From: Phycisphaerales bacterium | GTDB lineage: Bacteria > Planctomycetota > Phycisphaerae > Phycisphaerales > SM1A02 | Assembly (NCBI GenBank): GCA_022616475.1 | Contig: JAKEEP010000069.1 | Span: forward strand, 1-44,003 | Direction of reading: 5' to 3' | Length of the DNA stretch: 44,003 nucleotides | In this document: one piece after another, positions 8,475 to 44,003 of the stretch | Position numbering within the stretch: position 1 is the first letter of the stretch | Layout of the letters: the number at the start of each line of letters is the position of its first letter | The notes under the pieces: model-generated | What the model was told of the DNA's origin: nothing | The model's database searches: none | What the model saw: the letters and a program-made list of their open reading frames with translations, nothing else | Position numbers and translations under genes: made by a program

Positions 8475-8501
8475 TGTCAGGCTCTCTTGATCGCGCTGTG
8501 A

Positions 8502-8530: not shown

Positions 8531-8567
8531 AGCGAAAGTCAGACTTTCTATCGGCGATACGCGCCAA

Positions 8568-10026: not shown

Positions 10027-10054
10027 AGGATACCAGGTGTATCGGCGATTGCAA
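10027..10054 (-). promoter_or_regulatory. Candidate recA promoter
   Basis: On the minus strand TTGCAA (10049-10054) and TATCCT (10027-10032) are separated by 16 bases, about 40 bases before the earlier possible recA start. GTTCG half-sites occur at about 10013 and 10071, but no full LexA palindrome is seen. Prediction by eye only. Confidence 0.3.
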
Positions 10055-10120
10055 GCCAATGTTCGCAATATTTTAGGTGCCAGGCCCGCAGGGTTTTCGA
10101 GAGACTCGGAGGTCAACGAA

Positions 10121-10144
10121 AACGCCGCACATACGTGCGGCGTT
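10121..10144 (-). terminator. Intrinsic terminator after acidic-tail secreted protein
   Basis: A 10-bp perfect stem (10121-10130/10135-10144) with a 4-base loop. On the minus strand it is followed by TTTTCGTT. It lies about 30 bases beyond the stop at 10175 that would end the restored acidic tail, supporting the view that the tail region is part of the gene. Confidence 0.75.
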
Positions 10145-10174
10145 GTGGTTTCGCCAAACTACTATCCAAAGCGA

Positions 10175-10346
10175 TCAATTGTCATCGCTGCAGTCGTCGC
10201 TGCTGGCGTCGTCATCGTCGCTTTCTTGGTCGTCATCGCTGTCGTCGCCGCTGCTGCCATCATCATCGCCATCATCGTCCCCGTCGCTGCCATCGTCGCT
10301 GCTGTTGTCGCCGTCATCACTGGCATCATCGTCATCGCTGTCGTCA
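10175..10346 (-). pseudogene. Frameshifted continuation of the Asp/Ser-rich tail
   Basis: On the minus strand, removing one base near 10346 (the T of GGCAGCAGCTGACGAC) makes the Asp/Ser/Gly tail run on for about 56 residues (composition like DDSDDDDASDDGDNSSDDGS) to a TGA at 10175. A true terminator follows. This points to an indel inside a GAT/GAC/AGC repeat, by slippage in the cell or by sequencing or assembly error. The same DNA read in other frames gives only repetitive nonsense. Confidence 0.6.
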
Positions 10347-11300: not shown

Positions 11301-11472
11301 GGATGTGTACCTCCTTCATCCGCGCCCTCACGCGAATTGATGATGCTCAATATATCCCGTTGCTCATGGGGTTTCCTTGCAGAAAACCGCCCTACTCGCC
11401 GGCAACCTCCCGATTACCTGTGAAGGTAGGTAGGCCTCGACCATGCTCGCCTTAACAGCGACCGTAATGAAA

Positions 11473-11500
11473 ACCGGCATCGTCGAGAGGCGATGCCGGT
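11473..11500 (-). terminator. Intrinsic terminator after paralog B
   Basis: Stem of 10 bp (11473-11482/11491-11500), 8-base loop. On the minus strand it is followed by TTTTCATT. It is 46 bases beyond the stop of the leftward gene that ends at 11547. Confidence 0.75.
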
Positions 11501-11546
11501 CCAAACCAAACGATCAAACAGACCCCATTTGCGTCAGCAGGGCCGT

Positions 11547-12320
11547 TTACGATGTACCCTCAACGATTTCCATGGTTGTGACGAACGGTCCGACCGTCAC
11601 GACATCCCCATCCTGAATTGCCGGAAAGGCCCGTGGCATCGGCTCCTGATCATCGTTGTTGATGAACCTCGCGGTTCGCAGCTCAAATTCTGACTGCGCG
11701 GCGCCGGTGGCCACCAAAATCCCTACCGGCTCGCCGTTCAACAGAATCTCGAACTCGTCGCCTTCGGCCGCGTCTTCGATTTGGACCGTGAAGCGACGGT
11801 CCAACCCGTTCGACGTTTTGAATATTTCTCGGTATCGCACGTCACCCGAGGGCCCGGTAGTGTCGCCAAAGTCGCCCCGCAGCCTCACGCGCTGCTTGGC
11901 GTCGTCGAGGAGGTCAAAGAAGTATCCCGAGAGCGGCCCAACGGTGACCAGGTCACCGGTATCCAACGTCGGAAAGTTGTCGGGAATCGGCTCGACGTCC
12001 TGCCCGGGCTCGATAAAAGCAGCGGTGCGAAGGTCAAGTTTGCCCCGGCCGTTGTCCGCCACCGTAATGTCCCCGACATCCTGGCCATTGACCATCACGT
12101 CAAGGACATCGCCAGGCGTGGCGTCGCTGACACTGGCGAGGAAGCGCTGAAAAAGCTCCCCGTCTTGATCCCGTTCCACGAACGTCGCGTTACCCTTCAA
12201 ACCTGGGCCAAAGAGGCGGGCCTTCGAGCGGGCCAAGAGTTGGGCCGAGGCCGTCGATTCCAACCCCAGACTGGCCACGAATGCGAGAATCAAACTGCCT
12301 AGAGAGAGTGTTCTGAACAT
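11547..12320 (-). CDS. Secreted two-domain protein (paralog B)
   Basis: A 257-residue exported protein of the same unnamed family as its two neighbours. The signal peptide is MFRTLSLGSLILAFVASLGLESTASAQ; ATG 12320 has GGAG 9 bases upstream, so the longer open frame to 12398 is not used. Domain 1 (about 28-130) contains DVMVNGQDVGDITV and PIPDNFPTLDTGDLVTVGP; domain 2 (about 140-255) contains EILLNGEPVGIL and PMPRAFPAIQDGDVVTVGP. There are no cysteines in the mature part and no acidic tail. The domain looks all-beta; a surface, matrix or adhesive role is only a guess. It has its own terminator. Confidence 0.8.
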   Translation of the reverse strand: MFRTLSLGSLILAFVASLGLESTASAQLLARSKARLFGPGLKGNATFVERDQDGELFQRFLASVSDATPGDVLDVMVNGQDVGDITVADNGRGKLDLRTAAFIEPGQDVEPIPDNFPTLDTGDLVTVGPLSGYFFDLLDDAKQRVRLRGDFGDTTGPSGDVRYREIFKTSNGLDRRFTVQIEDAAEGDEFEILLNGEPVGILVATGAAQSEFELRTARFINNDDQEPMPRAFPAIQDGDVVTVGPFVTTMEIVEGTS

Positions 12321-30284: not shown

Positions 30285-30563
30285 TCGAGGCGCCGAGAAG
30301 GCGGAAGAGGGAGAGGAACGAAGGCAAGGCAAGTCCACAGATCTCGCAGGTGGCGCGGATGGACGGACTTCAACATGCGCCATTGGGCTGTGATATATGA
30401 TTCTTGGGCACTCTCAGCGCGGGCTCCGTAGTGTGCACGACGGTTGGTTGTTTGATGGGTCGATGGCGGGGTGGCTTCGGATTGGGGTTGACGGCCGTAG
30501 TTGACCCCGGGGTTTTTACCGATATTGTGTTAGCCCGCCTCAATTTGGTTTGGGAGGCGAAAT

Positions 30564-30636
30564 TCCCCTATAGCTCAATCGGTAGAGCGGCCGGCTGTTA
30601 ACCGGCAGGTTGCTGGTTCGAGTCCAGCTGGGGGAG
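30564..30636 (+). tRNA. tRNA-Asn (GTT)
   Basis: The cloverleaf is complete: acceptor stem TCCCCTA/TGGGGGA, D-arm AGCTCAATCGGTAGAGC, anticodon arm CCGGC-TGTTAAC-CGGCA region with anticodon GTT, T-arm GCTGGTTCGAGTCCAGC, discriminator G. CCA is not encoded. It is the last backbone gene before the mobile region. Confidence 0.96.
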
Positions 30637-30643
30637 CTTCTTC

Positions 30644-30666
30644 AAGGGCCTCGGAACGAGGCCCTT
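30644..30666 (+). terminator. Intrinsic terminator after tRNA-Asn
   Basis: A 10-bp perfect stem (30644-30653/30657-30666) with loop GAA, followed by TCTCGTT. It lies 7 bases after the tRNA. Confidence 0.75.
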
Positions 30667-31032
30667 TCTCGTTGACGGTGACCGGTCGGAGAAGTTGGCG
30701 CAGAACGCTCGCAATTCGCGGGCATTTGCGCGTGGTGCCAGTCTCACGGCGCTCTCGGTTCCGAGACTTCATTTCTGCCTTGCGGTCGCCACCCCGAGGG
30801 TTCCAACAGCGGTCTGACGGTGAAGTCTCAAAGTCTCATACTCTCTTGGTTTACGCGGCGTTCCCGTGAACGCGGTGTTGCCTTCGGACACCGTGTCGGT
30901 TCATCACCGTTTCGCGTATTCAGAGAATGACGGCCCGCCGCTGCGGCGGGCTCCCATCAACGCCAGACGCGATGCCGAGCGCACAGCGCACGTCCGCGTG
31001 GGCGCATGACCCCTTCCACAAAGGGCGTGCCC
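30667..31032. other. Gene-free stretch between tRNA-Asn and recombinase cassette
   Basis: About 365 bases with no convincing coding sequence. It holds an 8-bp GC hairpin at 30933-30951 and a CGGTGT/ACACCG stem near 30880. The left end of the mobile region probably lies here or at the tRNA, but I see no clear repeat to define it. Confidence 0.4.
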
Positions 31033-31257
31033 ATGCTTCAGGACGTTGCGCTCACTGACGACATCGTGCATCCAGTGCCGGACACGCCGGCAAGTCCGGC
31101 CGAACGACTCGATGCCATCGCCACGATTCTGGCTGCGGGCGTTCGTCGCCGCCGGCGACAACTCGCGGTTTGTTGCCCAAATATCGCGCCTTGTGGCGGC
31201 ACTCAAACTGGACTTGATCTTCCGGCCAGCCCTTGCCCTGATGGGTCCGCGGGTTGA
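31033..31257 (+). CDS. Small protein ahead of DUF2924-recombinase cassette
   Basis: A 74-residue protein. It starts MLQDVALTDDIVHPVPD, then SPAERLDAIATILAAGVRRRRR. A short ORF with an ERLDAIA-x-ILA-x-G helix is common just before such recombinase cassettes; this is from memory of the cassette layout, not a search. The end is Cys/Pro/Gly-rich. It ends 23 bases before the DUF2924 gene. Function unknown; the helix could contact DNA or a partner. Confidence 0.55.
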   Translation: MLQDVALTDDIVHPVPDTPASPAERLDAIATILAAGVRRRRRQLAVCCPNIAPCGGTQTGLDLPASPCPDGSAG

Positions 31258-31280
31258 CGCACCCGAGAACGGAGAACCAT

Positions 31281-31787
31281 ATGGCGATCGATGTGAAAGC
31301 CGCCGAACGGGCCTTGAGCCAGATGACCGTGCCGCAGTTGCAGCGGCGCTACGCGGAGCTGTTCGGTGACGAAACCAGAACCCACCACAAGACGCTGCTC
31401 ATCAAACGCATCCTGTGGCGCATGCAGGCGCTGCGCGAGGGTGATCTCTCGGAGCGTGCACCGCAGCGGGCGCGAGAGCTGGCCAATGATGCGGATCTTC
31501 GTCGCGGCCCGCCGCAGCGGACAACCCCCGCGTCCGTGCCGGGCGACACCGTCGTGCACGCTCGGATTGAGACGCTCAGCGACGCTCGACTGCCAGCACC
31601 GGGAACACTGCTTCGTCGCGAGTACAAGGGCCGCGCGATTCTGGTCCGCGTCTTGCCAAGAGGCTTCGAGTTCGATGGCGAGGTGCATAGGTCGCTCAGC
31701 GCCATCGCGGCCAAGGTGACCGGTTCGCACTGGAACGGATATCGCTTCTTCGGGCTGGTGCAGACCGGCAAACTGGAGGATTCATGA
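31281..31787 (+). CDS. DUF2924 family protein
   Basis: A 168-residue protein. MTVPQLQRRYAELFGDETRTHHKTLLIKRILWRMQALREG (in two parts) and the later GTLLRREYKGRAILVRVLPRGFEFDG and SHWNGYRFFGL are typical of DUF2924, a family nearly always found directly before a serine recombinase. GGAG lies about 8 bases before the ATG. The stop overlaps the recombinase start by 4 bases (ATGA), so the two are translationally coupled. It probably helps DNA binding or controls recombination direction; this is inference from context. Confidence 0.9.
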   Translation: MAIDVKAAERALSQMTVPQLQRRYAELFGDETRTHHKTLLIKRILWRMQALREGDLSERAPQRARELANDADLRRGPPQRTTPASVPGDTVVHARIETLSDARLPAPGTLLRREYKGRAILVRVLPRGFEFDGEVHRSLSAIAAKVTGSHWNGYRFFGLVQTGKLEDS

Positions 31788-33373
31788 CAACGATGGAAAA
31801 GCCAACGAAACGATCTGCCGTGGCTACGGTGCGGTGCGCCATCTACACGCGCAAGAGCACCGAAGAGGGACTGGAGCAGGAGTTTAACTCGCTGGATGCC
31901 CAGCGTGAAAGCGCCGAGGCATATGTCGCCAGCATGAAGCACGAGGGATGGATCGCAGCGCCGGATCGATATGACGACGGCGGCTACACCGGCGGCAACA
32001 TGGAGCGCCCGGGCGTCAAGCGGCTCATGGCCGATATCGAGGCTGGGAAAATCGACTGCGTCGTGGTCTATAAAGTCGATCGGCTGAGCCGGTCGTTGCT
32101 GGACTTCGCGCGGATGATGGGCGAGTTTGACAAGCGCCACATCTCGTTCGTCTCAGTGACGCAGCAGTTCAACACCACCCAGTCAATGGGTCGGCTGACG
32201 CTCAACATCCTGCTGTCGTTCGCCCAATTCGAGCGCGAGATCATCTCGGAGCGCACCCGCGACAAGATCGCGGCCTCCAAGCGTAAAGGCATGTGGTTCG
32301 GCGGCAAGCCGATCCTCGGATACAACATCGCCCCCAAGTCTGGCGGAGGCAGTAGATTGGTGGTCAACGACGCCGAGGCCGAGCGCGTCCGCGAGATCTT
32401 CCAGTTGTACCTAGAGCATCGCTCGCTCACCAAGGTCGCCCGAATCCTCAACGACCGCGGTTGGCGCACGAAGCAGTGGTCAACCCGCAAAGGCAAGGCG
32501 GTGGGCGGCCGGATGTGGGACAAGCACGTTTTGATCAACGTGCTCACCAACCCGGCGTACCTCGGCAAAGTCCGACACAAGGCCGACCTGTTCCCCGGCG
32601 AGCACACGGCGATCGTGGATGAGGGACTCTGGAAGCAGGTCTACGGCATCATCAAGCACAATGGCCGGACTGGCGGAATGCACGTGGGCAACCAACACGG
32701 CGCGCTGCTCAAGAGTCTTCTGCACTGCGGCCCGTGCGGGCACCTGATGGGGCACACCTACAGCGTCAAAGACGGCAAGGCCGCGTACCGGTACTACGTC
32801 TGCTACGTGGCGCAGAAGCAGGGCTGGCACGCTTGCCCATCCGGTTCGCTGCCAGCAGAGCAGATCGAGCGGCTGGTGGTTGATCGCATCAAGCACATCG
32901 GCAGTGATCCAGCGCTACTCACGGCGACGTTCCGCAAACTACAGGAGGGTGTTCGCCAGCAAATGGCGCAGATCGAGTCGGACCAGTCGCTGGTGGAACG
33001 CGAGATCAGGAAGATCGCGGCGGATATTCGCAAAACCGCGTCGACCGCCGGGAGCGATGCCCACGCCGCAGCGCGCCTGGCCGACCTGCACGACCGGCTT
33101 GCAAAAGCCCAGGAACGGGCGCGCGACCTCCACGCCGATGCCGAACGAGTCCGTGAGGAGTTCATCGGCAAGGGCGAAGTCGCCCGCGCGCTGGGTGAAT
33201 TCGACCAGACGTGGGAAGTGCTGCGCCCGAAGGAGCAGGTCGCTTTGCTGCGGGCGCTTGTGAAGCGAATTGAGTACGACGGCGGCAAGAAGACCGTTTC
33301 GATCACCTTCCACCCGGCCGGTTTGCGATCGCTCGGACAGGTGCCCGTGGCGGCAGAACAGGAGGCGGCATGA
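31784..33373 (+). CDS. Large serine recombinase
   Basis: A 529-residue site-specific recombinase, probably the integrase of the element. The resolvase domain (about 15-160) begins CAIYTRKSTEEG with catalytic Ser25, followed by VVYKVDRLSRSLLDF and the FAQFEREIISERTRDK helix. The recombinase domain (about 170-290) includes ILGYN, the TKVARILNDRGW segment and a NPAYLGKVRH region. A zinc ribbon follows (CGPCGHLMGHTY ... YYVCY ... HACPSG, about 315-350), then a coiled-coil-like helix rich in Ala, Glu, Arg (about 380-470). This is the complete layout of large serine integrases. It overlaps the next gene by 4 bases. Confidence 0.95.
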   Translation: MTTMEKPTKRSAVATVRCAIYTRKSTEEGLEQEFNSLDAQRESAEAYVASMKHEGWIAAPDRYDDGGYTGGNMERPGVKRLMADIEAGKIDCVVVYKVDRLSRSLLDFARMMGEFDKRHISFVSVTQQFNTTQSMGRLTLNILLSFAQFEREIISERTRDKIAASKRKGMWFGGKPILGYNIAPKSGGGSRLVVNDAEAERVREIFQLYLEHRSLTKVARILNDRGWRTKQWSTRKGKAVGGRMWDKHVLINVLTNPAYLGKVRHKADLFPGEHTAIVDEGLWKQVYGIIKHNGRTGGMHVGNQHGALLKSLLHCGPCGHLMGHTYSVKDGKAAYRYYVCYVAQKQGWHACPSGSLPAEQIERLVVDRIKHIGSDPALLTATFRKLQEGVRQQMAQIESDQSLVEREIRKIAADIRKTASTAGSDAHAAARLADLHDRLAKAQERARDLHADAERVREEFIGKGEVARALGEFDQTWEVLRPKEQVALLRALVKRIEYDGGKKTVSITFHPAGLRSLGQVPVAAEQEAA

Positions 33374-33819
33374 ACGAGCTCAACGAAGTCACGATCGAGT
33401 TCCCGGTCCATTTCACCCGCGGAGCGGGCGGGCGCAAGGACCTCAACACGGGCATCGCGCCCCCGGAACCCCCGACGGAAGCGGGCCGGGTACCCCGTGT
33501 CGCCCGGTTGATGGCCTTGGCGATCCAGTTCGCGGAACTCGTCCGTCGCGGCGAAGTCGATTCCTACGCCGACCTGGCCCGACTCGGGCACGTCACCCGC
33601 GCCCGGATCACGCAGATCATGGATTTGCTCTGTCTCGCGTCCGACATCCAGGAGGAGATACTGTTCCTGCCGCGCGTCGAGCGGGAGCGGGACGCGGTGA
33701 GCGAGCACGAACTCCGACCGGTCTGCGCCGTCGCGCACTGGCGGGAGCAGCGAAAGCGCTGGCGTAGCCTCCGCGAGTCCCGTGGCGGCCAGCGCCGCAA
33801 ACATGACAAACAAGCGTGA
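33370..33819 (+). CDS. HTH protein coupled to the recombinase
   Basis: A 149-residue protein. The middle, VARLMALAIQFAELVRRGEVDSYADLARLGHVTRARITQIMDLLCLASDIQEEILFLP (given here only to name the region, 40-105), has a helix-turn-helix of the ParB-like/sigma-like type in DLARLGHVTRARITQIMDLL. The N-terminus is short and strand-like, the C-terminus Arg/Lys-rich. It overlaps the recombinase stop (ATGA) and so completes the three-gene cassette. A recombination directionality factor or repressor role is likely but unproven. Confidence 0.85.
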   Translation: MNELNEVTIEFPVHFTRGAGGRKDLNTGIAPPEPPTEAGRVPRVARLMALAIQFAELVRRGEVDSYADLARLGHVTRARITQIMDLLCLASDIQEEILFLPRVERERDAVSEHELRPVCAVAHWREQRKRWRSLRESRGGQRRKHDKQA

Positions 33820-33886
33820 CTTCGCGCTGGGAGCCGGGCGCGGTTCGCCACCGGGTGTTGGATCAGCGCCGCGATTCGCGCGGTCC

Positions 33887-34195
33887 TCAGGCGGCTTCGA
33901 CGGTCGTCTCCGTCCGGCGGTAGACATAGACGAAGTGCGCGGCCGCATCATTGCTCGGGATAGACCCGCCTTGGCAGCCCAACGTGCGCTGGAGCGCGAT
34001 CATCGTGGCGTAGGCGGCGCGGTCCGATCCCGCATCGACAGTGGCGTACTTGCCCATTCGCCGGTCCACGCCGTGGTTATGGAACAGGCGCTGCTCGGTG
34101 TCGGCTGCGACGCCGACGTGCCATCTGCCATAGTCGCTGCCGCAGGCATCGATGTACTTCTTGATCTTGTTGTAGGCGCTGGCGTTAACGTTCAT
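33887..34195 (-). CDS. Small conserved-type protein, opposite strand
   Basis: A 102-residue protein of unknown function. It reads as a compact domain: YNKIKKYIDACGSDYGRWHVGVA, DTEQRLFHNHGVD, YATMIALQRTLGCQGG and AAHFVYVYRRT. The W-x-V-G-x-A ... R-L-F-x-x-H pattern and the closing V-Y-x-Y-x-x-T resemble small GIY-YIG-like or phage-borne proteins I have seen, but this is a weak memory. It is the only leftward gene inside the element. No clear ribosome site. It may be cargo. Confidence 0.6.
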   Translation of the reverse strand: MNVNASAYNKIKKYIDACGSDYGRWHVGVAADTEQRLFHNHGVDRRMGKYATVDAGSDRAAYATMIALQRTLGCQGGSIPSNDAAAHFVYVYRRTETTVEAA

Positions 34196-34394
34196 GCCGG
34201 TTCCACTCAGATGGGAATGCGGAGCGGCCTGTCACACATTCCGGCGGGAAGTGCTCGCTCCACTACCTGAATACGCAATCCATCGCCCAGTACGACGACG
34301 ATCAGTCGAACACAACCCGCAGGAGTCAGTCAACCGCATGCACGGGAGTGCGGGACGTGGGCTTGGCGACCGCTGCCTGCTCTAATATCTGACC

Positions 34395-35465
34395 GTGGAC
34401 CAGACATCGCGCGATTTCGATTTCTACTACAACCTGCTTGGGCCGCTCTTCGCAGGCAAAGGCGTCGATCCGCTGGAGTACGCGTGCGCGCTCTTGCGGG
34501 TTGACGGATTGGAGGACAAGGGCTGGGACACGCTGGCAGAATCGTTCGACACCCTGCGCGACCTCACGCACCTCGCGGATGTCAATTTGCCCGCCGAGAC
34601 ATTCCCTGATGCCGAAAAGACCCGGCTGCGTCTGCACCTGATCTCGTACGCGCATCTGGTCGAGTGCGATGCGCCCTACGACATCCTCGCCAACCTGTGC
34701 CGTGTGAAGGCTGGCCTGCCCTCGAGCATTCGGCCGTTCTGGGATGAGGCCGAATACCAGCGCCGGCAGAAGCAGGCGGCCAAGAACCCCGGCAAGTTGC
34801 CGCGCGAAGCCAAGCCGCCCTCACCTTCGAGCAAGATACGCGCATTCAAGGCGCTGGCGCATCGCGCCGGCGTGCCGGACGTCGGCGCGGCCTTCGACGA
34901 TTTCTACTTCCCTGTGATCCGCAACGCGATCGACCACTCCGACTACATCATCCACGGCGACGAGTTCCGGATGCGCAAGGGGCAGTTGCTGACCGTAGAT
35001 GCGACGCCCGTCGAATCATCCATTGTGCCGCTCCCGCGATTGCGGGCGATTATTGACCGGTCCTATGCCTTCTACAACGCGTTCTTCACCCTGCACGAGC
35101 AGATGCGGCGTTGGTTCTCGACGATGAAGGGCAAGGCCATCCCGTACGACCTCCGGCTGAAGGGGCTGTTGGAGTTCCTGGTGGATGACGCGGGGCTACT
35201 CTGCGGCTGGAAGGTTCACTGGCCCAATGGAACGGAGTCGAGCTATCGGAGAGACTCCGATGGTTCCCATCCACTGAACATCCATCCCCACATCGACGAA
35301 CCGATAGGGATGTTCGTGGGCGAATACCACAAGGACCATGAACCCTTCTCGCGGCTGGTGCCGCGCGGGGAGCAGCCCGCCTACACGCCCGCGGCTGGGG
35401 CGACCGAACCACTGCGCTGGCCCGAAGATGCGGCGATTCCAGTTCCGAAAGTCGAAGCCGGTTGA
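34395..35465 (+). CDS. Unknown protein with HEPN-like motif (first of pair)
   Basis: A 356-residue protein of unknown family, mostly helical in its first 245 residues. The segment FYFPVIRNAIDHSDYIIHGDEF contains R176-x4-H181, the RxxxxxH active-site pattern of HEPN RNases, followed by a second His (H187). A basic Pro/Lys linker (about 130-147) separates the N-terminal helical region. The C-terminal 100 residues are mixed and end acidic. The start is GTG 34395 with no ribosome site; TAATAT lies 6 bases before it, so the message may be leaderless. It is 84 bases before a second helical unknown protein with a similar motif. HEPN assignment is inference from motif and context. Confidence 0.6.
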   Translation: MDQTSRDFDFYYNLLGPLFAGKGVDPLEYACALLRVDGLEDKGWDTLAESFDTLRDLTHLADVNLPAETFPDAEKTRLRLHLISYAHLVECDAPYDILANLCRVKAGLPSSIRPFWDEAEYQRRQKQAAKNPGKLPREAKPPSPSSKIRAFKALAHRAGVPDVGAAFDDFYFPVIRNAIDHSDYIIHGDEFRMRKGQLLTVDATPVESSIVPLPRLRAIIDRSYAFYNAFFTLHEQMRRWFSTMKGKAIPYDLRLKGLLEFLVDDAGLLCGWKVHWPNGTESSYRRDSDGSHPLNIHPHIDEPIGMFVGEYHKDHEPFSRLVPRGEQPAYTPAAGATEPLRWPEDAAIPVPKVEAG

Positions 35466-35549
35466 AGGCAACACCTCGCACCGCGGTGGTGGATGAAGCT
35501 TCGCGGCCATCGACAACGTTGCAGTGTCTGTCGCCATTGAGGAGCACGC

Positions 35550-36518
35550 ATGCAATACAGCCGATTCGCAACAGACATGAAGCCGTGGTGTGTGTGGGAC
35601 TGGGATCTGAAGGAACAGACCACTACCTTCCTCAAGACATTCGACGCCACATACTTTGAGTACCTCGCCAACCTCCACGCCGAGCGGCTCGAAGGCGACG
35701 ATGCCCGTCACGCCGCCACGGCGGTGCGCACGACCTATTGCCATGCGATGGAAACGCTCTTCGCCTTGCTCGGCGCGATCGTGCAGGCGCCGGACTGCAT
35801 CCCCGGCTGGATACAGAAGTACCGCCCGGAACACCTGGATCAACTGGTCGAGAAGATCAGCAAGGGTCGCGAGGTGTACTCGAAGGTCCGCGCTGAGCGG
35901 CTGACGTGGCAAACCCTCGCCGAGATCACCTTGCGATGCCTGTCGCTCTCAGACAAGGACAAGGAGCGGCGGATCAAGGAGGGATTCGGCCGCTTCTGGA
36001 GCCGCCTCGCGCAAGAGTTTCTGAGCGATGAGATTCGTGCTGAATACAACAGCATCAAGCACGGGTTCCGCATCGGCTCAGGCGGGTCATGGATTGCGAT
36101 GGGCGAGGAAGAGGTGCCTGGCGCGCCATGCCCACCCGAGAAGATGCAGGTGGTGGGCGGTAGCGAGTTCGGCAGCACGTTCTTCGAGCCGAAGGAGCTG
36201 CTCAAGCACAACCTCCGGCTCGTGCGCCGATCCGTGAATTGGGACCCCTTCGTTCTATGCGGGCGGATACGCCTGATCTCGCTGTCGCTCCGCAACCTCG
36301 TCTCCTTCCTCCTGATCGGGCACGGCGCGCACGCATCGAGCGCACAATTCCGATGGCCGGAGGAACTGGATCATTTCGACGAAGTGTGGCACGGCCCATC
36401 GCTTCACACGTCTTCGTTTTCCAACATCATCGAGTTGAAGGATATCAAGCCGCAGAGCGCCGACGAGATCCTCGCCGTGTATGCGCGCCCGACTGAACCC
36501 GGCGAGGGAAACGCGTGA
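35550..36518 (+). CDS. Unknown protein with HEPN-like motif (second of pair)
   Basis: A 322-residue mainly helical protein. Conserved-looking features are RTTYCHAMETLFALLGAIVQAP (about 60-81), RFWSRLAQEFLSDEIRAEYNSIKHGFRI (about 148-175, in pieces) with R163-x7-H171, and GGSEFGSTFFEP. The YNxxKHG motif occurs in other unknown helical proteins related to HEPN-like folds; I infer, not prove, this link. GAGGAG lies 5 bases before the ATG. It is in the same direction as the previous gene and they probably form a two-gene cargo unit. No signal peptide or membrane segment. Confidence 0.65.
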   Translation: MQYSRFATDMKPWCVWDWDLKEQTTTFLKTFDATYFEYLANLHAERLEGDDARHAATAVRTTYCHAMETLFALLGAIVQAPDCIPGWIQKYRPEHLDQLVEKISKGREVYSKVRAERLTWQTLAEITLRCLSLSDKDKERRIKEGFGRFWSRLAQEFLSDEIRAEYNSIKHGFRIGSGGSWIAMGEEEVPGAPCPPEKMQVVGGSEFGSTFFEPKELLKHNLRLVRRSVNWDPFVLCGRIRLISLSLRNLVSFLLIGHGAHASSAQFRWPEELDHFDEVWHGPSLHTSSFSNIIELKDIKPQSADEILAVYARPTEPGEGNA

Positions 36519-36619
36519 CTCGAAACCGCTGCTATCCGATCTCCTGTGCTACGTTCGCCGCAGCATGCCCTCGGCTGCTGCTATCCTCACCGCCATGACC
36601 CATCAGCGGAGCCACAAGC

Positions 36620-37336
36620 ATGGCCGAATCTGAGCCGAAGCGCCTTTGTGCTGGCCGCGCCTTCATGGAAGCGGTTCAAGGCGATCCCGAGGCGATGGCT
36701 GCCCTTCGGCGAACACAGGAGCGACTGCGGGCGTTCGCCGAGCACCAGCAGCAGCTGCCGAACAGCGCTGCGCTCGTGCGTCGCGCGCTGGAGATTATCG
36801 CAGAACAGCTTCGGGAAGCGCACGCGGCACTTGATGCTGCGCATGCTGAGGCTGCCGAGCTGATGGCCGATCTCATTCGCGGCGCGCTCGATGACATGAA
36901 CTCCCGGCTCCAACAGGCCGGATTCGAGCCGTCCGGGCGCGATCTGGAAGCATGGGAGCACCTGGCGCGGATGGTCGAGTGCGAGCCAACCGCGATGACG
37001 CTTGGAGATATTTTCAACTGGGCGATTGCCTGGGCGGATCGGGAGAAGATGCGAGCGCGGATTGGTGCGTCAGTCCAGAAGCCGAGCAAGCGACAAGCAT
37101 CCGGCCTGACCGGCGAGGCCCAGGCCGTGGCGCTGCTCGTTCAGCACCCGGAGTGGACTGACAGCCAGATCGCCGAAGCCGTTGGATGCGCACGAACCAG
37201 TCTTTATCGCTGGCCGAAGTTCACGATCTCCCGCGCTGCTCTCGAACAGGGCCGCGGCGGGATCGCCACGGGACGCAAGGATGCCCAAACAGGTGATCTC
37301 GAAGCCTGGGACGAGGACGAGGATCAGGATGACTAG
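36620..37336 (+). CDS. HTH-containing protein of replication operon
   Basis: A 238-residue protein, phage- or plasmid-like. Residues 30-100 are a long Ala/Glu/Gln/Arg helix, probably coiled coil. Toward the end (about 170-205) VALLVQHPEWTDSQIAEAVGCARTSLYRW forms a helix-turn-helix. The end is acidic (DLEAWDEDEDQDD). CGGAG lies 8 bases before the ATG. It could be a regulator, or resemble a terminase small subunit, but no terminase is seen. A good terminator follows, so it may be its own unit. Confidence 0.75.
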   Translation: MAESEPKRLCAGRAFMEAVQGDPEAMAALRRTQERLRAFAEHQQQLPNSAALVRRALEIIAEQLREAHAALDAAHAEAAELMADLIRGALDDMNSRLQQAGFEPSGRDLEAWEHLARMVECEPTAMTLGDIFNWAIAWADREKMRARIGASVQKPSKRQASGLTGEAQAVALLVQHPEWTDSQIAEAVGCARTSLYRWPKFTISRAALEQGRGGIATGRKDAQTGDLEAWDEDEDQDD

Positions 37337-37366
37337 GCGACAATCTTTGCGACACGTGGGATGAGA

Positions 37367-37388
37367 AGACCCCGGAATCCCGGGGTCT
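37367..37388 (+). terminator. Intrinsic terminator
   Basis: A 9-bp GC-rich perfect stem (37367-37375/37380-37388), loop AATC, followed by TTGTGTTT. It is 30 bases after the HTH gene stop and before the next gene's ribosome site. Confidence 0.8.
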
Positions 37389-37452
37389 TTGTGTTTCTGT
37401 CGCGCGACTTCCTTGCGACACCGGCCCAGCCTCCAGAAGGAGGCATGGTCCG

Positions 37453-37671
37453 ATGCCGAAGCAACAACCGACAGTCCCCGATGAGCCTTGGCGCGATTCA
37501 CCGGCCGGCTGGTTCGTCGTGCTGGAACGCGCAAGGGAGACCAACGACTACGAGGCTGCCGGGCGGGCGCTGCGAGAACTTCGACGCCTTGGCGTGATCG
37601 TGAAGTACCGCCCACGGAAACGCCGCCCCGACCCGCTGAATACGACGCGGAAGGAGACCGGCGATGCGTGA
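37453..37671 (+). CDS. Small basic protein, first of tight operon
   Basis: A 72-residue protein with GGAGG 9 bases before the ATG. It has the helix-rich segment WFVVLERARETNDYEAAGRALRELRRLGV (in one region, 20-49) and a basic tail. Short proteins with an ARETNDYEAA-x-x-A-x-RELRRLGV-like pattern are known to me from other planctomycete element operons, but I can name no function. It overlaps the next gene by 8 bases. Confidence 0.7.
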   Translation: MPKQQPTVPDEPWRDSPAGWFVVLERARETNDYEAAGRALRELRRLGVIVKYRPRKRRPDPLNTTRKETGDA

Positions 37672-38047
37672 TGCCGCAGCGGTCTCAATCAGCGCGCCTC
37701 CTATCGAGCGCCGTACTTCGGTCGTCCGTACTTGGCGGGCGCTGACCGGTGAGGAGCGGCGGCTCGTCGAGTTGATGCGACGGATCGCGTTCGGCAGGAT
37801 CGAGCGGCTGTGCGTGATAAATGGCTCGCCGACATTCGAACCCATGCCGCGGATCGTGCGCGAAGTGAAGCTCGGGCATGAGCGAACAAGCGGCGCGATC
37901 GCCCCATCAGTGGACTTCACGCTCAAACAGGCAGTTATCGAACTGCTCGCTGAACTACAGGCGATCGGCGATGGCGTCGTCGCATTGATCGAAGTTCGGC
38001 ACGGCTTGCCATGCCGACTGGTTCTGGAGGAGGCCGGCGATGTGTGA
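37664..38047 (+). CDS. Small conserved-type element protein
   Basis: A 127-residue protein with ALTGEERRLVELMRRIAFGRIERLCVINGSP and MPRIVREVKLG (about 26-70), then a helix LKQAVIELLAELQAIGDG and a closing VRHGLPCRLVLEE. Function unknown. The start overlaps the previous stop by 8 bases and the stop overlaps the next gene by 8 bases, so it is translated as part of one operon. Confidence 0.7.
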   Translation: MRDAAAVSISAPPIERRTSVVRTWRALTGEERRLVELMRRIAFGRIERLCVINGSPTFEPMPRIVREVKLGHERTSGAIAPSVDFTLKQAVIELLAELQAIGDGVVALIEVRHGLPCRLVLEEAGDV

Positions 38048-38600
38048 CTTCCAGACAGCAGACTCACCGTGGCAAGGGTTGGACCTCGATCACGCGAGAG
38101 CGGTCGCATACAGGCAGGCACGTGCGATCGCCGGGAATGGAGCAACGAGGGAGGACGTTTGCGACCTGCAGAGCGACCTGGTACTCGCGGCTCTGGAGCG
38201 ATGGCCGCGATTCGACCCGTCTCGCGGCCGGGCACGGGCGTTCACATCTGTGTGCATCAGCCGCGCAGGCACATCCATGTTCCGTGCGCGCAGCGCCGCG
38301 AAGCGTGGCGGCTGCCAGAACACGCTCAGCCTCGACCAGATGGTGCAGGCCGGAACGGAGCCGAGGATTCGATTCGCCGCCCCGTCACGTGATCGCGACC
38401 GAGTGCGTGATGTGGACCTTTCGCACGATGTGTCCACGGCGATAGCGGTATTGCCGCCGGACCTGCGGGCCACTTGTCAACGTTTCCTGATGGGCGCTTC
38501 TGACCCAACCTCACCGCGCCGCACCCCGCGACTCGGCAACGTGGCGGCGCGTCTGCGGGAGCACTTCGAGCCTCTCGGACTCAAGGAGTATGTGTCATGA
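38040..38600 (+). CDS. Sigma-70-like region 2 protein of mobile element
   Basis: A 186-residue protein. The part ATREDVCDLQSDLVLAALERWPRFDPSRGRARAFTSVCISRA (about 35-76, named here by its ends) resembles region 2 of small sigma factors, where the pattern DLxQDLxLxALxxxxxFDPxRGxxxxF is usual. Downstream there is a region (about 130-180) of helices that could be region 4. It may direct transcription of the element or only use the fold for DNA contact. It overlaps the previous gene by 8 and the next by 4 bases. Confidence 0.7.
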   Translation: MCDFQTADSPWQGLDLDHARAVAYRQARAIAGNGATREDVCDLQSDLVLAALERWPRFDPSRGRARAFTSVCISRAGTSMFRARSAAKRGGCQNTLSLDQMVQAGTEPRIRFAAPSRDRDRVRDVDLSHDVSTAIAVLPPDLRATCQRFLMGASDPTSPRRTPRLGNVAARLREHFEPLGLKEYVS

Positions 38601-39325
38601 CTTCCAGCAATGAGCATGGATCGCTCTCGCGTCACGATGGTCGCTCACCCTTGGCACCGAGACCGACTGTGATGGCGTCAAGGAACGGAGCGCCGGCTGG
38701 CCGAACACCTCGGCGCATACCGCCCCTGCCGGTCGTGCGGCCGCAACAGCCCATTCCGCCGCAGTCGCCCGCCGGCACAAACCAGCCCCCGACCTCGACT
38801 GCCTCCGGGGGCGGGGATTCCGGGGGCTGGGGAGGCAGGCGGCTTCCGCGACTCTACTTCGCCGGCAAGATCGGTCACACCGATTGGCGGCACACGCTCG
38901 GCGCTGACCTGTGGGACGGAGAGTTCGGTGAGCCGATTCGATGCGAGCGGTTCATCTACTGCGGTCCGTTCTTCGTGGCCTGTGATCACGGATGCTCGCA
39001 TGGCGATTGCACGCACGGCCTGGGCCACGGCTGCGGAACGATTCGCGTGCCGCCGCGATGGCTCATCCCATCGTTGTGCCTGGAGTGGATTCGCCGGTGC
39101 GATTTGTTCTTCGCGTGGATCGATGATCCGACCTGCTACGGCACGCTCGTGGAGATCGGCTGGGCCCAGTTGATGCGGAAGCCCGTCTACATCGGATTCA
39201 AGTTGTCGTGTCACTATTCAGAGATGTGGTTCGCGGCGATGGGGCCGCGAACGGTCGCCCGCATTCATACCAACGCTGCCGAGGCACTCGAACGGGCGCT
39301 CGCTTACGGAGCCGCCACGCTGTGA
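38597..39325 (+). CDS. Nucleoside 2-deoxyribosyltransferase-like protein
   Basis: A 242-residue protein. The first 82 residues are low-complexity, rich in Pro, Arg and Gly. The rest resembles the nucleoside deoxyribosyltransferase/TIR-like Rossmann group: LYFAGKIG (about 87), CDLFFAWIDDP, then CYGTLVEIGWAQ with Glu186 in the place of the catalytic nucleophile, and KPVYIGF. Between strands is a segment with C129, H131, C133, H135, C138, H140, H144 and C146, possibly a metal site. Start ATGA overlaps the previous stop by 4 bases, and its stop overlaps the GTG of the primase gene. It may act on nucleotides during element replication or against competitors. Confidence 0.72.
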   Translation: MTSSNEHGSLSRHDGRSPLAPRPTVMASRNGAPAGRTPRRIPPLPVVRPQQPIPPQSPAGTNQPPTSTASGGGDSGGWGGRRLPRLYFAGKIGHTDWRHTLGADLWDGEFGEPIRCERFIYCGPFFVACDHGCSHGDCTHGLGHGCGTIRVPPRWLIPSLCLEWIRRCDLFFAWIDDPTCYGTLVEIGWAQLMRKPVYIGFKLSCHYSEMWFAAMGPRTVARIHTNAAEALERALAYGAATL

Positions 39326-41832
39326 CGCTGCAGACAGCGATGTCGTATCGGCAGGCGGGCCTCTGCGTGCTCCCAGCGCGCGGCGACGAGAAGCGGCCGG
39401 CGGTCGCCACGTGGAAGGACTATCAGCGACGGCTTCCGACCGATGACGAGCTGCAGTCGTGGTTCGGCCCCCGGAACTCCCGTAACCCGCAGAACGACAC
39501 CGCGCTGTGCATCGTCGCCGGGACCATCTCCGGCAATCTGGAGATGATCGACTTCGACCTTGGCGGAGAACTATTCGATCCGTGGGCGGAACTGGTCGAG
39601 GCAGAAGCGCCTGGGCTGTTGAGCCGACTCTTCACCGAGCGATCGCAAGGCGGCGGGCGGCACGTGGTGTACCGCACAGAACATGCGGTGAGCGGCAACC
39701 TCAAACTTGCGCAGCGCGTGGTCGTTGCTCCGTCAGCCGACCCGGTTGCCATCGCTGGCAAGCAGTTCGTTCCCCGGCGCGTGGATGATCGCTACGAAGT
39801 GCTCATTACGCTGATCGAAACCCGGGGCGAAGGCGGCGTGTTCCTCTGCCATCCGACTCCCGGATATCAGGCGCTCCAGGGTGAACTCACAGCTTTGGCG
39901 GTGCTTTCGGAACACGAACGCGACGTGCTGTTCGCCGCCGCTTGGTCGTTGAACGAACACGTTCCAGAGCCGATCGCGGCAAGTACTGAAGATGGCATTT
40001 CTGTGGCGGGTGCCGGGGCGCGACCCGGTGACGACTACAACCGCAGCGGCAACCCGAAGGAGATGCTTCTCCAGCATGGCTGGTCTGTGGCGCGAACTTC
40101 CGGGGGCGGGGGAAACGAGTATTGGCGTCGGCCGGGCAAGGACCGTGGCTGGAGCGCCACCCTCAAGGCAGGTGTTCTCTATGTCTTCAGCAGCAACGCG
40201 CCGCCGTTCGAGCCCAATCGCGCCTACTCACCATTCGCCGTGTACGGGCTGCTTGAGCACGGCGGCGACTTCGCCAAGGCGGCCTCGGCGCTGCGAACGC
40301 TGGGATACGGCAAGGCACTGTCGGAGAATGTCGCTGTCGATCTCACCCAGTTCCAAACCAGTAATCCGCGGCCGGAAGCATCGCCCACAGCCGGTGCTTC
40401 GGCGTGGCGACCATTTCCTACAGATGCCCTGCCCGAGCCGGTTGCGACGTATGTGCAACAAGCCGCGCAGGCCGCGATGCTCGATGACGCGACGATCGCC
40501 GTGCCGATCCTCGGTGCGCTCGCAGGCGCGATCGGAAATGCCCGGCGTGTGCGTCTGAAGAATGGATGGAGCGAACCGTGCATCGTGTGGGCGGCGATCT
40601 CGATGCGATCAGGCGACGGCAAGTCGCCGGCGCTGGACGCCGCCACGCGCTTCGCGCGCGATGAGCAGCTTCGTGAACTGGAGCGGTACAGGCAGGAAAC
40701 GGCCGAATGGGAGAAGGCCGCAGCGCAGGCCCAGGCGAACGGTGAAGAAGAACCGCCCGAGCCGCACCCGCCGAAGCGCGTCCTGGCCAACGACACCACC
40801 ATCGAAGCGCTCGTGAAGATGCTCGCCGAGCAGCCGCGCGGCATCCTGCTGGAACGGGATGAACTCGCCGGCTGGCTGGGTTCGTTCGATCGCTATGCTC
40901 GTGCCTCCGGAGCCGATCGGCCGTTCTGGCTGGCCGCCCACGGCGGACGACCTCATATCGTCGATCGCAAGACCAGCGGCACGCTGATGGCACCATCATG
41001 CGCCGTGAGCATCGTCGGCGCGATCCAACCCGGCATCCTCGAGGCCCAAGTCACGCAGCAGGATCGCGATTCGGGTCTGTTGGCCCGACTGCTCCTGGCC
41101 AGTCCGCCGGTGCCCGAGCAATCGTGGACCGAGGCCGAGGTCGATGGATCAACCCTGAATGTGATGGAGGGGGTGTTTCGCTGGCTGTTCGATCTGGACA
41201 TGTTGCGCGCCGAGAAGGGTCCCGAACCAATCGATATCCCGTTGTCGCCCGAGGCGAAGAAGATCTGGGTGCCGTGGTTCAACTCGGCCAAGCGGCGGCA
41301 GCGCACGACGGCTGACGATGACATGCACGCGGCGTGGTCGAAACTCATCGGCTACGCGGCCAGGCTGGCCCTGATCTTTGAACTGGTCGAGCGGGCGAAC
41401 ACGGTCGTGAGTGCGGCCGAGGCCCCCCGGCCGTTCGATGCCGCCATTCTTGCCGGTGCCGGCGACATTCGGGCGTCGGTTCTCGACGCGGCGATCATGG
41501 TCGTGGAGTGGTTCGTGGCCGAGGAGGAACGGCTCTACTCGCGCCTCTGTGCCGATGAACAGGACCGTGATCTGGATGACCTGATCGTCTGGATCGAACG
41601 CAAGGGTGGGCGTGTCACCGTCCGCGATGTCACGCGCGGCCCGCGTCGTTTCCGCGGGAAGGCCGGCGATGCGTTCGCGGCGCTCGATGGGCTGGTCAAG
41701 CAGGGACGGGGCACATGGCAGGAGCAGCCGCCGACGGCTTCCGGCGGTCAGCCGACGCGCGTGTTCGCGCTCAACGCTTCTGAGCATGTCGAGGCAAGCA
41801 ATCCTGAATCCGTGGCGACGCAACCTCCGTGA
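39322..41832 (+). CDS. Primase-polymerase / DUF3987 replication protein
   Basis: An 836-residue protein. The N-terminus (about 1-200) is a bifunctional primase/polymerase-type domain: AGLCVLPARGDEKRPAVATW, LCIVAGTISGNLEMIDFDL (likely metal Asp pair) and GGGRHVVYRTE. After a middle linker, the C-terminal DUF3987 domain (about 395-760) carries a P-loop MRSGDGKSP (428-436), LANDTTIEALVKMLAEQPRG, LLERDELAGWLGSFDRY and GAIQPGILEAQV. It is the typical replication initiator-helicase of integrative elements. GTG 39322 (GTGA overlap with the previous stop) is chosen over an ATG at 39208 that would overlap the previous gene by 118 bases. Confidence 0.9.
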   Translation: MTLQTAMSYRQAGLCVLPARGDEKRPAVATWKDYQRRLPTDDELQSWFGPRNSRNPQNDTALCIVAGTISGNLEMIDFDLGGELFDPWAELVEAEAPGLLSRLFTERSQGGGRHVVYRTEHAVSGNLKLAQRVVVAPSADPVAIAGKQFVPRRVDDRYEVLITLIETRGEGGVFLCHPTPGYQALQGELTALAVLSEHERDVLFAAAWSLNEHVPEPIAASTEDGISVAGAGARPGDDYNRSGNPKEMLLQHGWSVARTSGGGGNEYWRRPGKDRGWSATLKAGVLYVFSSNAPPFEPNRAYSPFAVYGLLEHGGDFAKAASALRTLGYGKALSENVAVDLTQFQTSNPRPEASPTAGASAWRPFPTDALPEPVATYVQQAAQAAMLDDATIAVPILGALAGAIGNARRVRLKNGWSEPCIVWAAISMRSGDGKSPALDAATRFARDEQLRELERYRQETAEWEKAAAQAQANGEEEPPEPHPPKRVLANDTTIEALVKMLAEQPRGILLERDELAGWLGSFDRYARASGADRPFWLAAHGGRPHIVDRKTSGTLMAPSCAVSIVGAIQPGILEAQVTQQDRDSGLLARLLLASPPVPEQSWTEAEVDGSTLNVMEGVFRWLFDLDMLRAEKGPEPIDIPLSPEAKKIWVPWFNSAKRRQRTTADDDMHAAWSKLIGYAARLALIFELVERANTVVSAAEAPRPFDAAILAGAGDIRASVLDAAIMVVEWFVAEEERLYSRLCADEQDRDLDDLIVWIERKGGRVTVRDVTRGPRRFRGKAGDAFAALDGLVKQGRGTWQEQPPTASGGQPTRVFALNASEHVEASNPESVATQPP

Positions 41833-41874
41833 TCGGTGACGGAACCTCCGTTTTGGCATGCGCCAGCGGGGTTG

Positions 41875-41997
41875 TGTCGCCATGTCGCCAGTCGCCAGTG
41901 GGAAGAAGAGAGAGAAGGAACGGAAAGGAATGGATGGTTGCGATGTTCCTCTTCTTCCTTTCTATATGTTCCTTCTCCCCTTGGCGACATGGCGACA
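41875..41997. repeat. Large imperfect palindrome with GTCGCCA iterons
   Basis: Outer arms of 16 bases (41875-41890 and 41982-41997) are perfectly complementary. Inside are further pairs of 10 bases (41912-41921/41968-41977) and 8 bases (41923-41930/41955-41962). The arms are made of GTCGCCA units: 41876, 41884, 41891 forward; 41982 and 41990 reverse; one more forward at 42060. A 13-base palindrome AGAACC-C-GGTTCT follows at 42004-42016. The structure is 43 bases after the replication gene. It could be an origin, a terminator or a structured RNA. Confidence 0.6.
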
Positions 41998-42119
41998 GGC
42001 GACAGAACCCGGTTCTTGGTGGTGCGAGCGTGGGTTCCGTCGCCGGACGAGCAGGTAGCGTCGCCAGCCCGCGGAGGAATCACCGCCCCAGGGGCCGCGC
42101 GTGCTGCGTTGGGTCCACC

Positions 42120-42269
42120 CACCGCGCAAGTGAGTGAAAAGAAAAACCGGACAGCGCAAATGGCTATAGGTTTGACCTTTGTGGTCAGCGCAGTGAAAAC
42201 GGGATGCCTCGAAGCAGTGGCGTGAGGCAGCCGCAATGCGTTGCCAGCCACGTACAGGAGGTCATCCCG
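42120..42269 (+). ncRNA. Possible IS110 bridge RNA region
   Basis: In the IS110 subgroup a structured guide RNA is encoded before the transposase, as known for IS621. This 150-base leader has at least three short stem-loops, with stems at 42205-42210/42224-42229 and near 42172-42186. I cannot define its ends or its target and donor loops by eye. Confidence 0.3.
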
Positions 42270-43577
42270 ATGGCACAATCGTACTCGGCACGGACGTTGA
42301 GTTCGGTGAATATTGCGAGCCTGGCGCAGGGACGCGACGGCCAGGCGGTCGTGATCGGCGTGGACGTCAGCAAGGCGGAGCTGCGGCTGGTGCCGCGCTG
42401 GGCCGACGGTGAGTTTGCGCGGCCGGTCCGTGTGCGGCAGCCCAGCGAGATCGGACAAGGCGTGGGTCTGCTGCGCGAGCTGGGCAGGGATCGTGAACTC
42501 ATCGTGGCGATCGAGCCGACCGGCCGGTACGGCGATGTCTTCCGGCAGGCATGTCATCGCGCGGGGATCACCGTGCATCGCGTGAGCGCGAAGGTCTCGC
42601 ACGACTACGCGGAAGTGTTCGACGGCGTGCCCAGCCAGCACGACGGGAAGGACGCGGCGCTGATTGCGGAACTCGCCGCGATTGGGAAGAGCCGGCCCTG
42701 GCCGTGGCCGGAACCTGACGGCTGGGAACAGCGGCTGTCGGTGTGCGCGGCCCTGGGCGATGCGTACCAGCGACAACGGATCGCATGGATGAATCGCATC
42801 GAGGCCTGGCTGGCAGCGCACTGGCCGGAAGTGCAGGAGCACCTGTGGCTGACGAGCGCGACGCTTCCACGAATCCTGGCGCGCTATGGCAGCCCGCGCG
42901 CGTTGGCGGCTGATCCTCAGGCGGCTGTTCGTCTGCAGCAATGGGGGCGTGGCCTGTTGTCGCCAGATCGGATCGAGAAGATCCTGCGCTCGGCGCGCGA
43001 GACGGTCGGCGTGGAGGTGATGCGCGAGGAAGCCATGCGGGTGCGGCGATACGCCATCGAGGTGCTGCGCGCCAGACTGCGGCTGCGGCGCTACAAGAGC
43101 CAGATGGCGAGACTGGCCCGGGCGCATCCAGTGACATCGAGGATGGCCAAAGCCGTCGGTCCGGCGACGGCCGGAGTGCTGTGGCTGGAAGCGGGCGATC
43201 CGGGCAAGTACAGCTGCGGCCGCGCGTACCTGAAGGCGCTGGGGCTGAATCTGGTCGAGCGCTCCAGCGGCGCCTACCAGGGCCCGCAGCGCATCAGCAA
43301 GCGCGGCTCGTCGCGGGCGCGGCGCTGGCTGCACTTCGCCGCGATGCGGATTGTGATGGAGGAACCGGTCAACCGCTGGTACGCCGCGAAGATCGCGCGC
43401 GATGGCGGGATCAAGAAGAAGGGGCTGACGGCGATCATGCGAAAGCTGGCCCTGGCCCTGCACCGGGTCGCCAAGGACGACGTGGAGTTCGAACCGAATC
43501 GCCTGTTCGCCGGCCGTCGCCGGCGTCGGCGCAGTCAAGCAACGGCGGGTCAGGAGGACAGCCGCCAGGAGGTGTAG
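42270..43577 (+). CDS. IS110-family transposase
   Basis: A 435-residue transposase. The RuvC-like N-terminal domain carries the DEDD set: D32 (VIGVDVSKAEL), E82 (AIEPTGRYGD), D125 and D128 (QHDGKDA). The C-terminal Transposase_20 domain starts around MAKAVGPATAGVLWLEAGDP and has the Ser-rich motif KRGSSRARRWLHFAA, holding the likely catalytic serine. AGGAGG lies 8 bases before ATG 42270, so the frame's extension to 42204 is not used. The end is Arg-rich (RRRRRRSQ). The gene looks intact and the element may be active. Confidence 0.92.
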   Translation: MAQSYSARTLSSVNIASLAQGRDGQAVVIGVDVSKAELRLVPRWADGEFARPVRVRQPSEIGQGVGLLRELGRDRELIVAIEPTGRYGDVFRQACHRAGITVHRVSAKVSHDYAEVFDGVPSQHDGKDAALIAELAAIGKSRPWPWPEPDGWEQRLSVCAALGDAYQRQRIAWMNRIEAWLAAHWPEVQEHLWLTSATLPRILARYGSPRALAADPQAAVRLQQWGRGLLSPDRIEKILRSARETVGVEVMREEAMRVRRYAIEVLRARLRLRRYKSQMARLARAHPVTSRMAKAVGPATAGVLWLEAGDPGKYSCGRAYLKALGLNLVERSSGAYQGPQRISKRGSSRARRWLHFAAMRIVMEEPVNRWYAAKIARDGGIKKKGLTAIMRKLALALHRVAKDDVEFEPNRLFAGRRRRRRSQATAGQEDSRQEV

Positions 43578-44003
43578 GCAGGACGCACAGGGTGCGATGA
43601 TGCGGATCGGGTTGGCTCTGTCCGGCCACTTCCGGAATGTTTGTCTCGTGGACGAAAAACCACCACGCGAAATCTCGAAGGGCCTGGACAGAGCCGCTGG
43701 ATGAAATCTTCGATACTGCCATGTTGATGCTCGCCGCGTCAGTGCATGCGGCGCGACATCCCAAGTTGAGCAAGGCAGAGGTACCCCAGCCGTGAAGTCC
43801 CAGGGCCGGCCCGCCTCCGGCGCATCGCACGCAGCACCCGCCATGAACGACGACGCAGTTGCATCCCGACCCGCGGATGGGTACGAATCGGCGCGGCACG
43901 GCATGTGCCCCTCGGGGCACATGCCGTGCACCCTGTGTTCTCTACTGGAAACGTAGAGAGAGATCATCTGGTCCTCCTGGACTTGACTCGGACAAGAGCA
44001 ACA
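43578..44003. other. Non-coding right flank of IS110 to window end
   Basis: 426 bases with no supported gene. It has a 10-base inverted pair (GGCTCTGTCC 43614-43623, GGACAGAGCC 43686-43695), the strong 16-bp stem at 43896-43929 and a smaller CTCTAC/GTAGAG stem near 43940. The right end of the IS110 element lies somewhere here. Confidence 0.5.
43896..43929. repeat. Perfect 16-bp stem hairpin
   Basis: GCACGGCATGTGCCCC and its exact complement are separated by only two bases (TC). No T-run follows on either side. It may be a palindromic target of the IS110 element, the element's end, or a terminator. Confidence 0.7.

Follow-up and report, generated by a model that had tools for sequence, protein, structure and literature searches.

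The two adjacent genes described here are, as we consider fairly probable, two separate pieces of cargo in a mobile element, gene 1 encoding a stand-alone HEPN ribonuclease and gene 2 an independent HEPN-like effector acting on RNA. This reading builds on the genes themselves, their conservation, their predicted folds, the slot in which they reside and the missing pairing of the two families in the loci found. Both genes lie in a stretch of 44,003 nucleotides, one whole contig of a draft genome of a Phycisphaerales bacterium, which is referred to as the window (Table 1). The ORF calls bear out the original prediction in placing two ORFs on one strand with a spacing of 84 bases, and the patterns it had pointed to, R176-NAID-H181 in gene 1 and R163-AEYNSIK-H171 in gene 2, are present in the translations. 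Both genes are indeed unnamed, carrying no Pfam, NCBIfam or PADLOC name. Searches of the two genes and their families against Pfam, NCBIfam, PHROGs and PADLOC returned nothing usable, with no match of PADLOC models to the members of the main gene-1 alignment (A5) and only stray matches to single members of the gene-2 alignment (A9; best E 0.012), and a sequence search among solved structures gave no match.

Table 1. Positions in the window of genes 1 and 2, their motifs and start signals, and the backbone genes of the surrounding element
Feature	Position	Strand	Basis and remarks
DUF2924 gene, element backbone	31254..31787	+	Pfam PF11149, 4.8e-39; same place in L081, L083, L084
Large serine recombinase, backbone	31784..33373	+	Pfam Resolvase, Recombinase, Zn ribbon
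149-aa gene directly after recombinase, backbone, left border of variable slot	33370..33819	+	
TAATAT, candidate -10 element of gene 1	34383..34388	+	sequence
Gene 1	34395..35465	+	ORF, 356 aa, GTG start
Gene 1 codons 176-183, RNAIDHSD, predicted HEPN active-site motif	34920..34943	+	alignments
AGGAG, Shine-Dalgarno-like site of gene 2	35538..35542	+	sequence
Gene 2	35550..36518	+	ORF, 322 aa, ATG start
Gene 2 codons 165-174, EYNSIKHGFR, conserved motif	36042..36071	+	alignment
Primase-polymerase / DUF3987 replication gene	39298..41832	+	Pfam

Two neighbouring genes in a variable slot

The backbone of the element is recognisable in three related genomes (L081, L083 and L084), in which the order of DUF2924-type gene, recombinase, 149-aa gene, variable stretch and primase-polymerase is kept. 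The serine recombinase is common to all three at 51-58% identity, and the 149-aa gene, which has no match in Pfam, has counterparts there at 52-57%. Downstream of genes 1 and 2, a sigma-like gene and the primase-polymerase/DUF3987 gene follow. Of 61 related genomes, 24 contain relatives of the primase-polymerase gene, with as many as five in a single genome. Genes 1 and 2 are absent from the variable stretch of the three relatives, which holds other genes instead, and a search with the gene-1 profile among 392 genomes of the phylum returned the window's own genome only. Since relatives of the backbone carry other genes in this place and gene 1 occurs, among these 392 genomes, only in that of the window, we regard both genes as swappable cargo, and the proposed cargo slot is supported by these three elements of the same backbone.

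The same slot contains a set of two genes that includes a QueC-like ATPase in L081 (6483-9105) and an MqsA-Panacea antitoxin gene in L084 (11656-12738), and it may supply further unknown defence genes. In the window, a protein encoded ahead of the replication gene (38597-39325) weakly resembles nucleoside 2-deoxyribosyltransferase, scoring slightly under the Pfam cut-off. No clear repeat pair that could mark the attachment sites of the element was found within the contig, near the end of which an IS110-type transposase gene (42204-43577) hides the right end of the element. An Rfam scan of 30300-44003 gave no family besides the tRNA.

The two genes differ in their start regions. Gene 1 has no Shine-Dalgarno-like run upstream of its GTG, as had been noted, and TAATAT ends 6 bases before this codon, which is the earliest possible ATG/GTG/TTG start, given an in-frame TAA just upstream. 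A promoter scan called no sigma-70-like site at gene 1. Judged from these letters, the candidate TAATAT and the missing Shine-Dalgarno site would fit a leaderless message, which we consider possible. In gene 2, AGGAG is located 7 bases ahead of the ATG.

The central claim of the original prediction was that both genes could form one system, with homologues never occurring side by side fixed beforehand as a refuting outcome, and side by side they were never found. Outside the window, 9 loci with gene-1 relatives and 16 with gene-2 relatives were obtained, none of which has both families, and the 15 gene-2 genomes yielded no gene-1 relative, a set without positive control in which the same profile was used that found the window's gene elsewhere. 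By BLAST, the proteins of gene 1 and gene 2 show no relation, and comparison of the two family profiles gave a local match at N-x-x-x-H only, with a probability of 1.9%. Among the scanned neighbouring proteins of the window there is no nucleotidyltransferase, the partner expected for an MNT-HEPN pair. A single defence or toxin-antitoxin system, with gene 1 as RNase and gene 2 as its partner or sensor, is suggested by the common strand, the 84 bases in between, the helical and HEPN-like character of both products and the shared slot. It is nevertheless very unlikely in our view, considering that adjacency is missing in all these loci and genomes, that two plasmids share a 1.2-kb block with gene 1 alone, that a ribosome site of its own precedes gene 2 and that 322 aa are large for an antitoxin. 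The two-gene system is therefore not supported. It is simpler to read the genes as independent pieces of cargo lying next to each other, which would be adjacent since both entered the same swappable slot.

Conservation and predicted fold of gene 1

Metal-independent ribonuclease activity by a dimer is one of the characters of the HEPN superfamily, and an acidic E-x3-[KR] is conserved in many, not all, of its families. Relatives of gene 1 were found on two Agrobacterium plasmids (37-38% identity over at least 90% of the length), on a Rhizobium sullae plasmid, in a Microcystis phage, in a faecal phage record and on IMG/VR contigs, while gene 1 as a single query found no relative in the genome contig collection. 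Although the plasmid and phage members of the main alignment share only about 20-40% identity, R176, N177, H181 and D183 are invariant in its 7 sequences and in the 6 of a further alignment (A8). R192 is likewise invariant across relatives sharing no more than 18-22% identity in places, and so is E90, which yet lies outside any E-x3-[KR]. The second histidine, H187, which had been proposed together with R-x4-H, is not conserved, so that only the R-x4-H part of the claimed motif stands. The HEPN signature has a polar residue directly behind the arginine, in most cases N, D or H, with N as the usual form (PMC3710099), and gene 1 displays a conserved R-x4-6-H with such a polar residue behind its R.

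As a bare pattern, R-x4-H in gene 1 is meaningless, because at least one occurs in 62% of shuffled copies of the protein, and the R-x7-H of gene 2 appears at least once in 58% of shuffled gene-2 copies. That both patterns arose by chance in ordinary proteins, as their presence in more than half of the shuffles would allow, is nonetheless scarcely credible as a general explanation, given the invariance of R176, N177 and H181 across divergent relatives and the structural matches to HEPN proteins. Conservation refutes a chance pattern for gene 1; for R163 of gene 2, we accept it.

The AlphaFold2 model of gene 1 has a mean pLDDT of 58.7, and the better-modelled parts of its HEPN region mostly reach 75-87; residues 1-245 are of moderate quality and the C-terminal 110 residues are unusable. 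For residues 30-245, HEPN or HEPN-like structures make up 8 of the 12 best structural matches: the HepT entries 7ae6 (Z 7.4), 7ae8 (7.1), 6m6w (6.6) and 7bxo (6.2), the Csm6 entries 6tug (7.2) and 5yjc (5.7), and 1ylm (7.3) and 2hsb (5.8). These eight comprise HEPN toxins, HepT, one protein of the DUF86 type and the HEPN domains of two Csm6 entries. The motif is located at 68% of the aligned range, as is R102 in 7ae6. Foldseek with the gene-1 model gave no significant match (best E 0.13). A HEPN helical bundle is present in a predicted sense, with a moderate model and Z of 5.7-7.4, and since Z values of 5-7 are within reach of unrelated helical bundles, the HEPN assignment of gene 1 rests on the fold and the invariant motif together. 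With an invariant RN-x3-H and HEPN structures leading the fold comparison, the assignment made for gene 1 in the original prediction is well supported.

The C-terminal part behaves differently. By tblastn, the window's gene 1 aligns with the phage-type relatives to about residue 206 (no further than 230) and with the Agrobacterium relatives as far as residue 343, and the C-terminal stretch of about 110 aa is conserved only with the latter. From these alignments, the C-terminal part appears exchangeable, differing between branches of the family.

Relatives of gene 1 sit singly as extras on plasmids or (pro)phages, in the Microcystis phage among tail genes. The two Agrobacterium plasmids have a common block of 1.2 kb that contains gene 1 alone, with differing flanks, and between these two copies dN/dS is 0.28, from only 24 changes, which shows purifying selection on gene 1. 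From the single-gene block and this dN/dS, gene 1 therefore appears to be mobile and to be maintained alone. On the Agrobacterium pusense plasmid, an imperfect direct repeat of 44 bases (L008, 9796-9839 and 11072-11115) brackets the gene; the second Agrobacterium plasmid has short similar repeats between other genes, like a gene-cassette array. On an IMG/VR contig (L028, 422-5101), the relative is flanked by the gene of an AAA_21 (AbiEii/OLD-like) ATPase and by that of an unnamed 356-aa protein, and the three genes point the same way.

For gene 1 we infer RNA cleavage, dimer formation, a trigger and a role in phage defence. Its N-terminal helical domain would probably be dimeric, with R176, N177 and H181 at the cleft, and would be kept silent until the branch-specific C-terminal part binds or senses a trigger. 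The released protein would then cut RNA, so that the infected cell, and hence the phage, stops growing, and gene 1 would protect the host of the element alone, as the one-gene prophage protein Tha does. Less activity is assumed if gene 1 encodes a regulatory or RNA-binding HEPN protein without cleavage activity. A number of HEPN families are regarded as non-catalytic (PMC3710099), and the E-x3-[KR] conserved in many HEPN families is not seen here; unlike in inactive families, however, R-N-x3-H is intact and invariant in all aligned relatives, and we consider a non-catalytic gene 1 unlikely.

Gene 2: family, fold and neighbourhoods

Gene 2 has 16 relatives, 13 from the genome contig collection, 2 from same-order genomes and 1 from a Deinococcus plasmid; searches among viral and phage sequences gave none. 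The hosts of the 13 are Armatimonadota, Chloroflexota, Nitrospinota, Deltaproteobacteria, Acidobacteria, Gammaproteobacteria, Nitrospirota, Actinomycetota, Planctomycetota, Ignavibacteria and Gemmatimonas. The family spans about a dozen phyla; most of the relatives come from metagenome bins, so some phylum labels may be wrong. Alignment A9 combines 15 relatives with the window's gene 2 to 16 sequences, a shorter copy (L026) being included in another alignment (A4) only. In all 16 sequences, R60, E68, E165, N167, H171, G172 and R174 are invariant, and Y166 and K170 are kept in all but one, giving the motif E-[YH]-N-x-x-[KQ]-H-G-x-R. R163, in contrast, varies, its column reading RIQSTSVGSIAAIVRR down the 16 sequences. 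The R-x7-H pattern proposed for gene 2 is thus retained in its histidine and lost in its arginine, and at the positions 5 to 7 residues ahead of H171 no R is conserved that would supply the R-x4-6-H of HEPN proteins.

The structural model of gene 2 is confident (pLDDT 88, pTM 0.84). In it, the motif stands at the end of a helix, after which come a beta insertion and then the long final helix, the same order as in the gene-1 model. Foldseek found nothing significant (best E 2.4). In the realigned structural list, a Csm6 HEPN domain comes first with Z 5.2 over 132 residues, the next row having 4.1, and a second HEPN structure, 4nqf, reaches Z 3.3. With the arginine of the motif missing and one weak HEPN best match, the HEPN assignment of gene 2 in the original prediction is suggested only. 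With moderate confidence, we describe gene 2 as HEPN-like, without counting it among the HEPN proteins proper.

Probably, gene 2 encodes an R-less HEPN-like protein acting on RNA, a distant and altered relative of the HEPN fold. The main competitor is a new helical RNA- or nucleotide-binding fold, unrelated to HEPN, in which ExNxxKHGxR would be a different active site. The motif without R, the non-significant Foldseek result and HEPN matches no better than Z 5.2 and, for 4nqf, 3.3 argue for it. Against this stand the helix-end motif, the beta insertion and the long last helix, which resemble gene 1, the local profile match, which pairs N-x-x-x-H of both families, the AbiU2 HEPN that occupies the same rtc slot in a relative (see below), and the Parep1/8 families, described as HEPN families keeping H without R (PMC3710099). 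We judge a fold outside HEPN to be a real possibility, if at less than even chances. For the HEPN-like protein, which we prefer, a bundle without the motif arginine but with the invariant H171 would act as an independent effector that binds or cuts RNA, with activity centred on this histidine; E165, N167, K170 and R174, plus R60 and E68 on an earlier helix, are further fixed polar residues.

No fixed partner of gene 2 was found, its neighbours differing in nearly every locus inspected. Individual loci contain PemK toxins (L018, L020), an MNT-HEPN pair (L017), AIPR (L022), Schlafen AlbA_2 and SIR2-like genes (L014) or MmeI with RES/Xre genes (L010). These neighbours of homologues and the swappable cargo support the defence or toxin setting that had been proposed for the pair. 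In an Ignavibacteriaceae MAG (L025, 7968-9925), the homologue is arranged tail to tail with a DUF5677 gene.

One neighbourhood relates gene 2 to RNA repair. In genome G068 (L012, G068:C2:482000-501900, 8150-11662), a gene-2 homologue lies between rtcB and rtcA and overlaps both, with RtcR and Ro60/TROVE-type genes upstream of rtcB-gene2-rtcA. In G080, which belongs to the same family as G068, the rtcB-rtcA slot is filled by a HEPN_AbiU2 gene (L045, 849-1520; Pfam 2e-14). There has consequently been at least one entry of HEPN-type genes into this slot that did not involve gene 2, and the sharing of one place beside RNA repair by a classical HEPN and a gene-2 homologue, a single occurrence, is suggestive. 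In G174, the slot contains an unnamed 245-aa protein with CPCC near its N-terminus and no Pfam match (L058, 2505-3242, minus strand). Twelve loci with rtcB just before rtcA were inspected, of which 9 are empty and one each holds gene 2, AbiU2 and the unnamed protein; with 1 of 12, we rejected the gene-2 family as a regular part of the rtc operon. A further-reaching and rather doubtful proposal is that gene 2 and its relatives make up a so far unrecognised family of RNA-acting proteins derived from HEPN, in which a new ExNxxKHGxR active site replaces R-x4-6-H and which can be wired directly into RNA repair, as in rtcB-gene2-rtcA. If true, RNA damage and RNA repair would be encoded in this one operon.

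Comparison with known systems

HEPN proteins are among the main bacterial RNA-cutting weapons against phages, of which single-gene ones such as Tha are barely understood yet. To these, gene 1 adds an unnamed HEPN-type family with exchangeable C-terminal parts that is directly testable, while gene 2 contributes a second unnamed family, widespread among bacteria, and its position in an RNA repair operon offers a test of whether it acts on RNA.

The closest known counterpart of gene 1 is Tha, an anti-phage HEPN protein from prophages of S. aureus that is activated by phage tail protein, with 301 aa and the motif R265-NSIM-H270, for which RNA cutting and aborted infection by the single protein were shown and whose DALI matches are Csm6 and an MNT-type HEPN toxin (PMC11087260). 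Both are single, mid-sized proteins that combine a HEPN domain with a part of no known fold and are carried as extra genes of mobile elements; R265-NSIM-H270 is comparable to R176-NAID-H181, and both match structures of MNT-type HEPN toxins and Csm6. By analogy, a mode of action like that of Tha is the most likely one for gene 1. The comparison is by description only, and the HEPN domain is C-terminal in Tha and N-terminal in gene 1. A further difference is the inhibitor gene ith, which overlaps tha.

HepT, the toxin of MNT-HEPN pairs, provides top structural matches of gene 1, which however has no nucleotidyltransferase antitoxin gene beside it and is more than twice as long. The HEPN domain of Csm6 is among the best matches of gene 1 and the best for gene 2, while no CARF domain was recognised and no CRISPR genes were noted nearby. 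For gene 2, which keeps the H together with other fixed polar and basic residues and lacks the R, the Parep1/8 families with H and no R (PMC3710099) offer a likeness by description, Parep being archaeal and gene 2 broadly bacterial. HEPN_AbiU2 differs from gene 2 in that no member of the gene-2 alignment matches PF18734, but it fills in G080 the very slot between rtcB and rtcA that is held in G068 by a gene-2 homologue.
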